Shown here piece by piece: positions 29,333-36,006 of a stretch of 37,939 nucleotides of DNA. The translations under genes and the position numbers were made by a program. The notes below the pieces were generated by a model. That model was not told the DNA's origin. It made no database searches and worked only from the letters and a program-made list of their open reading frames with translations. Origin of the DNA: Verrucomicrobia subdivision 6 bacterium (GTDB lineage: Bacteria; Verrucomicrobiota; Verrucomicrobiia; Methylacidiphilales; Verrucolacustridaceae); assembly GCA_945876115.1 (NCBI GenBank), contig CAMCNF010000005.1:1-37939 (forward strand). Reading direction: 5' to 3'. The stretch's first letter is position 1. Every line of letters begins with the position of its first letter.

Positions 29333-30274
29333 GTGCCCCGCCCGCCCATCCGCGCCGCCGTCCTCGACCTCGGCTCCAACACCTTTAAACTCCTTCTCGC
29401 CGAACAGTCCGGCTCCACCCTCCGCCTCCATCACGAAAAAGCTTATCCCGTACGCCTCGGCCAAGGTGTCGCTCTCACCGGTAAAATCCAACCCGCTACC
29501 TCTCGACGCGCTCTTCGACTCCTCGCCCGCCTCCAACGCAAAATCCGCATTTTTCATCCAAGCAAAATCATCGCCGTCGCCACCGGCACTCTTCGCCTTG
29601 CCCGCAATCGCCAATCCTTCCTTCTTCCAGCCTCTCGCATCCTCGGTCGCAAGATTTCCCTCCTCACCGGCCACACCGAAGGTCGCCTCATCGCCCTCGC
29701 TGCACGCCAACTCTCCTCCACCCGCTCCCCCCGATTTCACATCGACCTCGGCGGCGGGAGCCTCGAAGTCATCGACTCCCGTCATCCCTCCCGCCCAACC
29801 ATCATCAGCCTCAATCTCGGTTGCGTCGCTATCCGCGACACTCTTCTCCCCCACCACCCTCCATCCCCTTTGGCCTGGCTCCACGCCACCACCCAAATTC
29901 AAAAAGCACTAAAGAAAATTCGCCGTCCCGCCCGCCCCACCCACGCCAGCTTTTCCGGCGGCACCGGCCACGCCTACGCCTGTCTTCTCCAAAGTCAAAA
30001 TATCAAAGCCCGCCGACTCGAGGGGTTTCGCCTTAAGCTCACCAAGCTCGATTCTCTCATTGATCAAATTCGCCCTCTCACCCTCTCCCGCCTCCGCCGC
30101 CTGCCCGGCATGCCATCCGATCGCGCCTCCGTCGCCCTCGCCGCATTTCTCGTCCTGCGCGAAACCATGGCCCGCCTTCAGCTCACTTCCGTCCAACTCA
30201 CCACCCACGGCTTGCGCTATGGAGTCTGGCTCGACCAGATCGCTCCCGTACCCCTGAAAAAGATTATCCGATGA
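29333..30274 (+). CDS. Ppx/GppA-family phosphatase (short form)
   Basis: 'AAVLDLGSNTFKLLLAEQ...AVATGTLRLARN...HIDLGGGSLEVID...SLNLGCVAIRD...SFSGGTGHAYA'; GTG start proposed at 29333. Confidence 0.9.
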   Translation: MPRPPIRAAVLDLGSNTFKLLLAEQSGSTLRLHHEKAYPVRLGQGVALTGKIQPATSRRALRLLARLQRKIRIFHPSKIIAVATGTLRLARNRQSFLLPASRILGRKISLLTGHTEGRLIALAARQLSSTRSPRFHIDLGGGSLEVIDSRHPSRPTIISLNLGCVAIRDTLLPHHPPSPLAWLHATTQIQKALKKIRRPARPTHASFSGGTGHAYACLLQSQNIKARRLEGFRLKLTKLDSLIDQIRPLTLSRLRRLPGMPSDRASVALAAFLVLRETMARLQLTSVQLTTHGLRYGVWLDQIAPVPLKKIIR

Positions 30275-30864
30275 TTCCATCTTCCCCCGCCATCCAAGAG
30301 GCTCTCGCCTTCATGAAAAAATTGGAACGCGAACCCGCTCACGTTCAGCACGTCACTCTCTGGGCGGCCTTTCTTTTCCGTGAACTCCAGAACTTCCACC
30401 AACTCTCCCCCACCGATGAGGAACTCCTCGTCATCGCCTCCCTCCTCCACGATACCGGTTGGTCCACCGCCACAGACGAAAAACCCCACCACAAGGAATC
30501 CGCTCGCCTCATCCGCGAACACCAATGGAAAAATCTTACGAAACAACAAATCACCATGGTCGCCCTCCTCGCCCGCTATCACCGCAAAAACCCTCCCTCC
30601 CCCCTCCATCAGCGTTACCAAAATTTACCCAAAGAACGCAAACACGCCCTTCACTATCTCGCTGGAATCCTCCGCGTCGCCGATGCCCTAGACCGCTCCC
30701 ACCGCCAAAACCTTCACCCCTGCAAACTCGAACTTCGACCCGGAGTCTGCCTCATTCAATCCAAGGGAACCGACCCCGAAGAAGCCATCTTCGGCCTCGA
30801 ACGCAAGGGTGACCTCTTTCAAAATGCCTTCTCCCTTCAACCTTTTCTCAAATTAGTCTCCTAG
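30271..30864 (+). CDS. HD-domain protein resembling the C-terminal domain of long-form Ppx/GppA
   Basis: 'HVQHVTLWAAFLFRELQNFHQLSPTDEELLVIASLLHDTGW...HHKESARLIRE..RVADALDRSHRQNL'; ATGA overlap with the Ppx gene. Confidence 0.88.
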   Translation: MIPSSPAIQEALAFMKKLEREPAHVQHVTLWAAFLFRELQNFHQLSPTDEELLVIASLLHDTGWSTATDEKPHHKESARLIREHQWKNLTKQQITMVALLARYHRKNPPSPLHQRYQNLPKERKHALHYLAGILRVADALDRSHRQNLHPCKLELRPGVCLIQSKGTDPEEAIFGLERKGDLFQNAFSLQPFLKLVS

Positions 30865-30906: not shown

Positions 30907-32088
30907 ATGACTATGAAACGGTGGCGCCCTCAACTCATCGCCCTTGCCATCCTCCTCGCCTTCGTCGGCTTCTCCGCCAGTTATGTCCGCTACTTCGTCC
31001 GCGTCCGCACCCACAGCGTTATCGTCTTTTTTGTTCCTGGAGCTAGCCCCGAACTCCTCGCCCTCGCCCAGGCCCGCGACCCCAATCGCCGCCTCGCAGG
31101 CCTCGACCACGCCGACGGCATGGCCTTCGTCGAATCCCAATCCACCGATCACCTCACCGGCGACGCCGCCGCCCTCGCCTCCTTTCTCGCCACCGGCCAA
31201 CCCGGCCCCTCCGGTCGCCTCAGCCTTCGCTACGACGGAAAACCTGCCGATACCCTCCTTTATGAAGCCCAACGCAACGGTCGCGCCATCGGCATCATCT
31301 CCTCAGGCTCCATCACCTCCCCTGGCGTGGCCGCTTTTTACTCACACCAAGCCGATGCCTCGGTCTCCTCCACCATCGCTAATCAACTCCTCGACACCAC
31401 CCGCATCGACCTCATCTTCGGTGGCGGTCGCGAAGTTTTCACCGCCGAGAAACAGGCAGGCCACCGCAACCTCGAGCAGGAAGCCCAAAAGCTCGACTAC
31501 ACCCTCCTCTTCGATCGCGCCGGCCTCGAGAGCTTTCCCGCTTGGAATACCCGCAAAGCCTTCGGCCTTTTTGCCCCCGGCCCTCTTCCCCTCACCGCCG
31601 CCGCCGGCGAACCAGGCACCATCCGCCTCTCCGATCTCGTCCGCCGTGCCATCGAGACTCTCGCCTACAATCTTCTCGGCTACTTTCTTGTCATCGATCA
31701 CCCGCTCGTCGCCCTCGCCGCAGGCCAAAATCAAGCGGATCTCGCCGCACGCCAAATTCAGGAACTCGATCGGGCCGTCGATACCGCTCGCCAATACGCA
31801 GGCAAAAACACTCTGATCTTGATCTACTGCCCCTACTCCCTCGGCGGCTTCCAATTTCTCGATGCCCCTACCCTGGGAAACAAAAAAACCTCCGCCCGCC
31901 TCCCCTCCCTGTCCTGGCATAATGGCCCAGGCAAAAAAGGCTCCGATCCCGCCGCCATCTCCACCGGAAAACTGGGCGCACCCTCCGCAGGCTTCGGTTG
32001 GGTCGTCGCCTATGGCAAAGGCTCGGAAAAAATTCACGGCATCCTTAACCCAGGCGAACTCCACGCCATCCTCAGTCGCCAGCTCTGA
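30907..32088 (+). CDS. Alkaline-phosphatase-family protein, predicted catalytically inactive, membrane-anchored
   Basis: 'ESQSTDHLTGDAAALASFLATGQPG', 'IGIISSGSITSPGVAAFYSH', 'LIFGGGREVF', 'LGYFLVIDHPLVALAAGQNQA' follow the PF00245 layout but lack active-site residues. Confidence 0.78.
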   Translation: MTMKRWRPQLIALAILLAFVGFSASYVRYFVRVRTHSVIVFFVPGASPELLALAQARDPNRRLAGLDHADGMAFVESQSTDHLTGDAAALASFLATGQPGPSGRLSLRYDGKPADTLLYEAQRNGRAIGIISSGSITSPGVAAFYSHQADASVSSTIANQLLDTTRIDLIFGGGREVFTAEKQAGHRNLEQEAQKLDYTLLFDRAGLESFPAWNTRKAFGLFAPGPLPLTAAAGEPGTIRLSDLVRRAIETLAYNLLGYFLVIDHPLVALAAGQNQADLAARQIQELDRAVDTARQYAGKNTLILIYCPYSLGGFQFLDAPTLGNKKTSARLPSLSWHNGPGKKGSDPAAISTGKLGAPSAGFGWVVAYGKGSEKIHGILNPGELHAILSRQL

Positions 32089-32849
32089 ATCCTACCCAAA
32101 TCCGCGAAATCTTGGCCACCCACGGCCTGCGCCCCCTGCGCCAGCTCGGCCAGAACTTTCTCGTCGAACCCACCCTCGCCACCGTCATCGCCGCCGCCCT
32201 CCCCCCACCCAAACCCGAACCCATCCAAGAAATCGGCCCAGGCCTCGGCGCCCTCACCCGCGCCCTCCTCACCGCAGGCCACACCATCGAAGCGTTCGAA
32301 ATCGACCAAGGTCTCATCACCTGGCTTCGCCAATCCTTCCAAGACGAACCCCGCTTCCAACTCATCGAAGGAGATGCCCTCCAAACCCTCGCCCAACATC
32401 CACCCCGCTCCTTCGTCTGCGGCAATCTCCCCTACTCCATCTCCACCCCACTCCTCGTTCAACTCGCCCTCCGGTCTCCACCCCCCCAATCGATCGTCGT
32501 CACTCTCCAGAAAGAAGTCGCCGACCGCTTTGTCGCCCTTCCCCGCACCCCTGAGTACGGCGCCGTCACCATTCTCCTCCAAACCGTTTTCCTTCTCGAA
32601 AAAATTCGTACCCTTCCCCCTGAAGTCTTTTATCCTCGCCCCCAAATCGAGTCCGCCGTCTTGCGACTCACCTCTCGTCCCTCCATCCCTCATGATCTCA
32701 TTAACTTTTATGCTTTTGTAAAAAAAGGATTCTCCCAACGACGCAAACAACTTCAACGACTCCTTCCCGTCCCCCTCACCCAACGAGCCGAAGAACTCGA
32801 TCCTGCCGCATGGCACCAACTCTATGAACAGTACGGACGAAAAGTTTGA
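32085..32849 (+). CDS. rsmA: 16S rRNA (adenine1518/1519-N6) dimethyltransferase
   Basis: 'LNPTQIREILATHGLRPLRQLGQNFLVEPTLA...EIGPGLGALTRALL...CGNLPYSISTPLL...QKEVADR'. Probable CTG start at 32085; the track's TTG at 32112 loses the conserved N-terminus. Confidence 0.95.
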   Translation: MNPTQIREILATHGLRPLRQLGQNFLVEPTLATVIAAALPPPKPEPIQEIGPGLGALTRALLTAGHTIEAFEIDQGLITWLRQSFQDEPRFQLIEGDALQTLAQHPPRSFVCGNLPYSISTPLLVQLALRSPPPQSIVVTLQKEVADRFVALPRTPEYGAVTILLQTVFLLEKIRTLPPEVFYPRPQIESAVLRLTSRPSIPHDLINFYAFVKKGFSQRRKQLQRLLPVPLTQRAEELDPAAWHQLYEQYGRKV

Positions 32850-33333
32850 TCTCGTCGATCAGGAGGACCGTGTCATCGGCTCCGCCCTTCGCTCCCAGAT
32901 CCACGCCCAAGGCCTACTCCATCGTGCCGTTCACCTCTGGCTCTTTCATCCCGATGGCCGTCTCCTTCTCCAACGACGCTCCTTACAAAAAGACCGCGAA
33001 CCTGGTCGCTGGACCTCTAGCGTCAGTGGTCATGTCAACGCAGGAGAAACCTACGAAACCGCTATGCACCGCGAAATCCCCGAAGAGATTGGCATCCCCA
33101 CCTCCTCCTGCCTTGCCCTCACCCGCCTTCACTACATCCCCGCCTGCTCCGAAACCGATCAGGAGTTTGTCTGGCTTTACCGCGCCATCCACTCAGGCCC
33201 CTTTACCCCCGACCCTCATGAAGTCGCTGGCCTCACCTTTTTCTCCCCACAAGAAATCGATCAGCTCATTATCCGCCAACCCCAAAACTTCTCCACCTGC
33301 CTCCTTTTCCTTTGGCAAAAACACCACCCATGA
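32824..33333 (+). CDS. NUDIX hydrolase
   Basis: Complete Nudix box 'GHVNAGETYETAMHREIPEEIGI' and N-terminal 'FDLVDQEDRVIGSALRSQIHAQGLLHRAVHLWLF'. Confidence 0.93.
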   Translation: MNSTDEKFDLVDQEDRVIGSALRSQIHAQGLLHRAVHLWLFHPDGRLLLQRRSLQKDREPGRWTSSVSGHVNAGETYETAMHREIPEEIGIPTSSCLALTRLHYIPACSETDQEFVWLYRAIHSGPFTPDPHEVAGLTFFSPQEIDQLIIRQPQNFSTCLLFLWQKHHP

Positions 33334-34796: not shown

Positions 34797-35336
34797 TTAT
34801 TTTTCCTGCACCGGCAAATGAACCTCCGCCCTCTTTAAAAACCAGATCGTGAACGGGCTATTCCAATACACCGCATAGGCCTCCCCGCCCGCCTGGTACT
34901 TCGGCTGACTTTTCAGCCATTCCCGTAATTGTTGCGCATGCTTCTCAAAACTCTCCTTCGAATATCCGCCTCGAACCCCAATCGACGCCACCACCCTCTC
35001 GCCCACCCGCTTCCTCGTCACTCCATCCACCATTTGCAAATCACCGCGCTTGGCTGATTCTGAATCGAGATAAAAAGTCATCGTGCCAGGCCTCATTCCC
35101 GCTTCTACCGGGGTCGTCATCGGAACCTTGTTTTGCTGAATTGTCTGAAACAGCCGACGGAAAAGCCCGTTGTTTTCCGAAAAGTAGTCCCCCGAGCTAC
35201 GGGCTTGCAAAATCACTCCAGCCGGCAACGTCTTGATCTCACATACCCCCGCCCCCGTCATCGGGTAGGCCGACTCGTAGGCTTGCGATAATCCCGCCCA
35301 ACTCAGGAAGGAGAGAAAATAGATTGTGGCTTTCAT
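34797..35336 (-). CDS. SOUL-family heme-binding-like protein
   Basis: Signal peptide, 'FRRLFQTIQQNKVPMTTPVEAGM...MTFYLDSE...YWNSPFTIWFLKRAEVHLPV'. Confidence 0.85.
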   Translation of the reverse strand: MKATIYFLSFLSWAGLSQAYESAYPMTGAGVCEIKTLPAGVILQARSSGDYFSENNGLFRRLFQTIQQNKVPMTTPVEAGMRPGTMTFYLDSESAKRGDLQMVDGVTRKRVGERVVASIGVRGGYSKESFEKHAQQLREWLKSQPKYQAGGEAYAVYWNSPFTIWFLKRAEVHLPVQEK

Positions 35337-35770
35337 GCTTCCAAAGGATTGATCACTTCCAAAAAAGCAAATTTACGAAAATCCGCATCCGCGCTGTAGA
35401 TCCGATTGACCCCGTGTTGCCGTAGGAGGGTCGCGATGTGAGCATCCGAGACGCCGTTTCCACGTACGGCCAACTTTTCAGTGATTTGGGCAAAATCCGC
35501 CGCAAAACTTTCCTCTTCGCCCACCACCCGCACCCTCGGCCAGGCCAGAAGACTCCGTACATTGGCCCACGCTCGCAGCGGATCTAACGGATTACGGAAA
35601 ATGGAGGGATGGGTCACGATTCTCTGATAGCCACACAAAACTGGCCAAGTCAGACAAAAAAGATCTGGATCCTCCTCGCGACTCTTCAAGAAATCCAAGG
35701 CCTTCACTCGCTCCGGAGCAGCCTCATTGGAAGCAAATACCAGCAGGTTGACGTCGACAGAGTAACTCAC
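35333..35770 (-). CDS. PIN domain (VapC-like) toxin
   Basis: 'MSYSVDVNLLVFASNEAAPERVKALDFLKSREEDPDLFCLTWPVLCGYQRIVTHPSIF...VSDAHIATLLRQHGVNRIYSADADFRKF'. Confidence 0.92.
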   Translation of the reverse strand: MSYSVDVNLLVFASNEAAPERVKALDFLKSREEDPDLFCLTWPVLCGYQRIVTHPSIFRNPLDPLRAWANVRSLLAWPRVRVVGEEESFAADFAQITEKLAVRGNGVSDAHIATLLRQHGVNRIYSADADFRKFAFLEVINPLEA

Positions 35771-36006
35771 GCCTGACCCATGGCACGATAGAGGGCTTCC
35801 TTATCATGCAAATTCACCTTTGCCCCCATATCCTGAGAATGCCACTGCAGTCCGATCGGGACCTCCCTCAAGCTGCTCTTTTTCTTTTTCCCCAGACCCT
35901 CCGCCAAAATCTGTGAGGCCAACTCCCCCATCGTCCCACCCTGCTTTTTCTGCAAAGACCTCAGCTCTTCCAAAACTGGCCTCGCCAAATCCAATGTCGT
36001 CCTCAT
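35767..36006 (-). CDS. VapB/ribbon-helix-helix-like antitoxin
   Basis: 'MRTTLDLARPVLEELRSLQKKQGGTMGELASQILAEGL'; ATGA-type overlap with the PIN gene. Confidence 0.85.
   Translation of the reverse strand: MRTTLDLARPVLEELRSLQKKQGGTMGELASQILAEGLGKKKKSSLREVPIGLQWHSQDMGAKVNLHDKEALYRAMGQA

Follow-up and report, generated by a model that had tools for sequence, protein, structure and literature searches.

We infer, with a probability of roughly 0.85 to 0.9, that the gene at positions 30907..32088 (+) of the window, the whole 37,939-nucleotide stretch of DNA analysed here, encodes a non-catalytic, anciently repurposed pseudo-alkaline phosphatase (pseudo-AP), in which an alkaline phosphatase (AP) fold is carried on a membrane anchor. 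The protein combines what defines a pseudoenzyme, namely a homologous fold (as predicted), a missing catalytic motif, and retention by selection. The window belongs to a metagenome-assembled genome (MAG) of 1.7 Mb in 162 contigs (G000); most of the named relatives are MAGs of "Verrucomicrobia subdivision 6" from lakes, and one member, from a different family of the order, bears the label Methylacidiphilales.

The reading frame was open from the ATG to the TGA (393 aa), as the first-pass annotation of this DNA had stated. The product matched PF00245 with an E value of 1.3e-26 and 94 bits (curated cut-off, 24.4), scored 44.9 bits with the NCBIfam PhoA equivalog model against a cut-off of 540, and gave no match to sulfatase models in the domain search that returned PF00245. 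That annotation had also described a PF00245 layout with the key residues replaced, and the four substitutions it named were all present in a MAFFT alignment with E. coli PhoA. The metal motif around D51 (IGDGMG in APs) reads FFVPGAS (residues 41-47; 31027..31047, +), with D51 replaced by Pro; the former nucleophile motif reads DAAALASFLATG (residues 86-97; 31162..31197, +), with S102 replaced by Ala; the segment that holds E322, D327, K328, and H331 in PhoA reads DHPLVALAAGQNQ (residues 264-276; 31696..31734, +); and the former TADHETGG segment (D369 and H370) reads YCPYSLGG (residues 307-314; 31825..31848, +). For the second and the fourth of these, a phmmer alignment to the Vibrio AP (3e2d), independent of MAFFT, placed DAAALASFLATG opposite the nucleophile helix and YCPYSLGG opposite TADHETGS.

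Over the full set of positions (MAFFT versus E. coli PhoA, L062), D51/S102/D153/T155/R166/E322/D327/K328/H331/D369/H370/H412 turned out to be P/A/S/G/A/D/A/L/G/P/Y/P in the window protein. Nine essential residues are replaced, comprising the nucleophile Ser102, the phosphate clamp Arg166, and the Zn1, Zn2, and Mg ligands D51, E322, D327, H331, D369, H370, and H412; D101 (D86 of the window protein) is the only one of the aligned PhoA active-site positions that is retained. The original list of losses was right but somewhat understated, the additional ones being R166 to Ala, the Mg-site pair D153/T155 to Ser/Gly, and the third Zn1 ligand, H412, to Pro.

We then examined the predicted fold. The AlphaFold2 model of the window protein, built with 34 homologues, reached a pLDDT of 83.5 and a pTM of 0.82 and showed a helix at residues 6-31 and, after it, strands alternating with helices, with low confidence for residues 315-353. 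When the model was searched with Foldseek, alkaline phosphatases ranked first, the best match being the Antarctic TAB5 AP (2iuc; E value of 5.4e-23, TM score of 0.75 by query length). The model of a sister-clade member, L097 (pLDDT, 88.3), matched human ALPL with an E value of 6.1e-34 and a TM score of 0.83. A search of solved structures with the family profile returned alkaline phosphatases only and none of the pseudo-AP family itself. The AlphaFold/Foldseek check proposed earlier was thereby carried out, and the models strongly support the view that the fold has been kept and that it is that of an AP.

To place the protein among its relatives, genome contigs were scanned with a profile made from a 6-sequence alignment, loci of pseudo-AP homologues and of other PF00245 genes were fetched, and a tree of 134 proteins was constructed. 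Most congeners carried the gene, which also occurred in families f2-f9 of the order and in other families of the class. All 108 homologues with the residue loss, from 19 families, fell on one side of a single branch (SH-aLRT, 98); when the active-site segments were cut out of the alignment they still formed one group, with support dropping to 69. The pseudo members kept 0 to 3 of the nine essential residues, versus nine of nine in each of the 21 canonical APs compared, nearly all of which came from the same class. Retention differed between positions, with none of the 108 keeping H412, one keeping R166, 2 D327, 3 H331, 18 Ser102, and 57 D51. Conservation of the substituted positions in orthologues had been suggested as a check, and since the loss pattern is common to 108 homologues, it is more than chance.

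All 36 family members sampled matched PF00245 at an E value of 1e-5 or less (best, 1.8e-66). A search confined to one phylum, in which classes other than that of the window were sampled and not exhausted, showed a gap: family members had E values below 1e-100 and all came from the class, while the remaining hits lay at about 1e-50 to 1e-64. Twelve of the stronger hits from outside the class were checked as possible further pseudo-APs and discarded, as all of them keep the Zn ligands and the nucleophile and look like active APs. Because there is one clade with a shared loss, a gap in the phylum search, and ligands kept in the outsiders checked, catalysis would most simply have been lost once, before the families of the class diverged, provided that inheritance was vertical; the family-wise grouping in the tree, taken on its own and not against a species tree, suggests that it was. 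Of the earlier proposal of a repurposed protein, the repurposing stands, while the picture of a single operon case gives way to a class-wide family with, most simply, one origin. The gene was missing from several f2 genomes and from 10 near-complete genomes of two f8 genera, so that it is not indispensable everywhere.

Two further observations concern PF00245 proteins in other states. One pseudo member (L104:3998-5377(+), genome G316, family f43) keeps D51, Ser102, and Arg166 and has lost the Zn ligands, possibly an intermediate state. A separate PF00245 clade (L054:2821-4143(-), L055:2650-3975(+), L056:289-1653(-), L057:2953-4347(-), and L160:3989-5254(-)) keeps Ser102, Arg166, D51, D327, and D369 but has none of the His ligands left (H331 to Asn, H370 to Ser, and H412 to Asp) and also carries the replacements D153 to Glu and T155 to Gly; judging by these residues, the clade could represent an active AP whose metal site is all-oxygen.

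What the pseudo-AP clade conserves was determined column by column. The S102 column ranked 332nd of 412, among the more variable ones, and R166, H331, D369, H370, and H412 were variable as well. The most strongly conserved positions included glycines and alanines of structural type as well as F19, which lies in the anchor helix, and R126, Y259, G299, W337, G340, and P341. The clade's 55 best-conserved columns contained no His, Cys, Glu, Lys, Ser, or Thr. In about 82% of the members (weighted), a metal-ligand position, commonly 369, 327, or 331, is occupied by Lys or Arg, beside which the acids at 51 and 322 are mostly retained, and a basic side chain may thus stand in for the metal charge in most members. 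The subclade of the window protein has Pro at both 51 and 369 and no Lys or Arg substitute at the metal-ligand positions.

These data also bear on whether the protein could still be an enzyme, with an active site that has moved or works without metal and a substrate other than a phosphomonoester. D86 (D101), N275, and D288 are highly conserved in the clade and D51 is kept in 57 of the 108 members; moreover, pseudoenzymes can employ migrated residues (PMC10211241), and calls of inactivity made from sequence can be wrong, since YejM was at first called inactive and was later reported to have kept metal and to show Mg-dependent phosphatase activity (PMC7576196). However, canonical APs conserve D86, N275, and D288 just as strongly, and since none of these three positions provides a metal ligand there, the residues look structural; no nucleophile or set of metal ligands is invariant family-wide, and Pro occupies the D51 as well as the D369 position in the window clade. 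We consider such an enzyme unlikely.

The anchor turned out to be a property of the whole pseudo-AP clade. In the window protein, the N-terminal transmembrane helix (30922..30999, +) spans residues 6-31 of the model, with a hydrophobic core at about 10-27. It was found in all full-length members, and the match of canonical APs to the family profile begins only at about position 36, so that the membrane anchoring put forward in the first-pass annotation extends across the family. The charge bias around the helix was of the N-in type in 60 members, the reverse in 15, and equal in 33, the window protein itself being neutral. Judged from these charges, the AP domain would lie on the outer side of the membrane, probably in the periplasm.

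We next turned to the genomic neighbourhood. In the window, the pseudo-AP gene is preceded by a gene for a Ppx/GppA-type phosphatase (a 308-aa domain; 29348..30274, +) and one for an HD/Ppx-GppA domain III protein directly upstream (30271..30864, +), and is followed by ksgA/rsmA, encoding 16S rRNA adenine dimethyltransferase (TTG start; 32112..32849, +), by a NUDIX gene that overlaps the end of ksgA (32824..33333, +), and by a gene for an amine-oxidase/CrtI-like oxidoreductase. The gaps to the HD gene (42 nt) and to the TTG of ksgA (23 nt) bear out the tight operon noted previously. Three other features of the window were recorded: Ppx/GppA is split, with the catalytic domain (308 aa) and the HD domain III encoded by two adjacent, slightly overlapping genes (29348-30864, +); a gene for a SOUL heme-binding protein (PF04832; 34797-35336, -) follows the CrtI-like gene and is read from the other strand; and a VapBC-like pair (35333-36006, -) consists of a possible 79-aa antitoxin (35767-36006) whose gene overlaps that of a PIN-domain protein (35333-35770, PF01850).

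The pairing with ksgA is conserved in the order. A same-strand ksgA is the next downstream gene in 15 of 15 informative loci within the genus and in 21 of the 23 informative loci of the order outside it, mostly at a distance of 0-45 nt, and the upstream genes vary. The two exceptions are L024 (f8), where ksgA adjoins in inverted orientation, and L026 (f4), whose flank lacks it. Among loci from outside the order, none had ksgA in the flanks fetched. The ppx-HD pair immediately precedes the pseudo-AP gene in the genus and in some members of families f2, f5, and f7, and ppx neighbours are absent beside the gene in f3, f9, and all lineages outside the order. A divergent neighbour in f17, f30, and f40 is gpmI, whose product is itself an AP-superfamily enzyme (L084, L086, L089, L092, L093, L096, L109, L122, and L137), and a GDP-mannose-dehydratase-like gene adjoins in part of f43. 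Neighbours were clustered across the fetched loci in search of a conserved metabolic partner; besides ksgA in the order, gpmI, and the f43 gene, nothing consistent emerged. As no single partner is common to the whole family, the operon of the window is unfit for guessing the ligand.

The suggestion made at the outset, that the protein is a phosphate- or polyphosphate-binding accessory of the ppx-HD operon, draws on the position of the ppx-HD genes just before it in the genus and in some members of three families, and on the AP fold being a phosphate-binding one. It appears improbable, as lineages with gpmI or unrelated genes in place of ppx hold the same family, and R166 and all the Zn ligands, which bind phosphate in APs, are gone. 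A phosphate or polyphosphate ligand is thus not favoured by context, while some non-catalytic binding role is plausible. A functional link to KsgA and ribosome assembly could account for the close pairing in the order, maintained while the upstream genes differ; it is quite improbable, considering that no locus outside the order had ksgA in the fetched flanks, that the domain is probably across the membrane from KsgA, and that the pairing may reflect a shared operon only.

Alkaline phosphatases are dimers, which would allow the protein to be a heterodimer partner or regulator of an active AP paralogue. Many pseudoenzymes do regulate active relatives (PMC10211241). The copy number speaks against this possibility, as the pseudo-AP was the sole PF00245 protein in 14 of the 15 genomes checked, a count restricted to PF00245 within the AP superfamily; we therefore regard a function linked with an active PF00245 paralogue as very unlikely.

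To assess selection, pairwise dN/dS values (NG86) were determined for 17 sequences, including that of the window. The median was 0.115 for the pseudo-AP gene, 0.138 for ksgA, 0.162 for nudix, 0.205 for the HD gene, and 0.219 for ppx, and among the four closest relatives the pseudo-AP value ranged between 0.036 and 0.047. The pseudo-AP gene is the most constrained of the five operon genes and is under strong purifying selection. Of the 16 congeneric copies, 14 were fully open, one (L005) ended at a contig edge, and one (L007) had an in-frame TGA near the C terminus. Decay of a recently inactivated AP, which the loss of essential residues, the f8 and f2 genomes devoid of the gene, the TGA in L007, and a split copy in another family (L043, low coverage) might suggest, and which the first-pass annotation had already thought the lesser possibility, is rejected on the dN/dS values, the open congeneric copies, and a loss common to 19 families.

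We thus return to a repurposed, non-catalytic protein. Its AP-fold domain, tethered to the inner membrane by the N-terminal helix and most likely facing the periplasm, would lack a functional Zn/Zn/Mg site, a nucleophile, and the arginine that clamps phosphate. The family would have lost catalysis before the families of the class split and then been kept, mostly in a single copy per genome, with buried Lys or Arg replacing the metal charges in most members. The protein would act by binding an envelope ligand or partner, in a sensing or scaffolding capacity, as YejM/PbgA does with its AP-superfamily domain; by analogy, such a role is the leading candidate, though on balance doubtful. The fuller picture, in which a single ancient loss gave rise to class-wide membrane-anchored envelope sensors or scaffolds whose fold would stay intact without metal, Lys or Arg side chains having replaced the ions in the former metal site, is put forward tentatively.

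Databases still label these probable non-enzymes as phosphatases. The pseudo-APs exceed the AP cut-off of Pfam and are the sole hit in most of the genomes checked, so that surveys based on PF00245 may miscount them as phosphorus-scavenging capacity; one such survey used PF00245 at 1e-60 (PMC8812569), compared with 1.8e-66 for the best pseudo-AP member here.

PhoA is among the best studied enzymes, and we found no natural PhoA-type pseudoenzyme family described in the open-access literature searched, which is not proof of absence. The pseudo-APs are homologous to PhoA family members (E. coli PhoA, TAB5 AP, human ALPL) over most of the domain and share their predicted fold, but they are devoid of the Zn1, Zn2, and Mg ligands, Ser102, and Arg166 and have a conserved N-terminal anchor helix that canonical APs lack. 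They offer a natural series in which to ask how a two-metal active site can be dismantled while the fold persists. The hallmarks of YejM/PbgA (LapC) are LPS binding and control of LpxC turnover. It is an inner-membrane protein whose periplasmic AP-superfamily domain has been described as an LPS-sensing pseudo-hydrolase scaffold (PMC13125744), but that domain is arylsulfatase/LtaS-like and belongs to another family of the superfamily, and five membrane helices stand against the one N-terminal helix predicted for the window protein, making the likeness one of functional analogy and not of membership. The eukaryotic pseudophosphatases STYX and MK-STYX likewise present a dead phosphatase fold under selection (PMC10211241), theirs being the protein tyrosine phosphatase fold, which is unrelated to that of AP.
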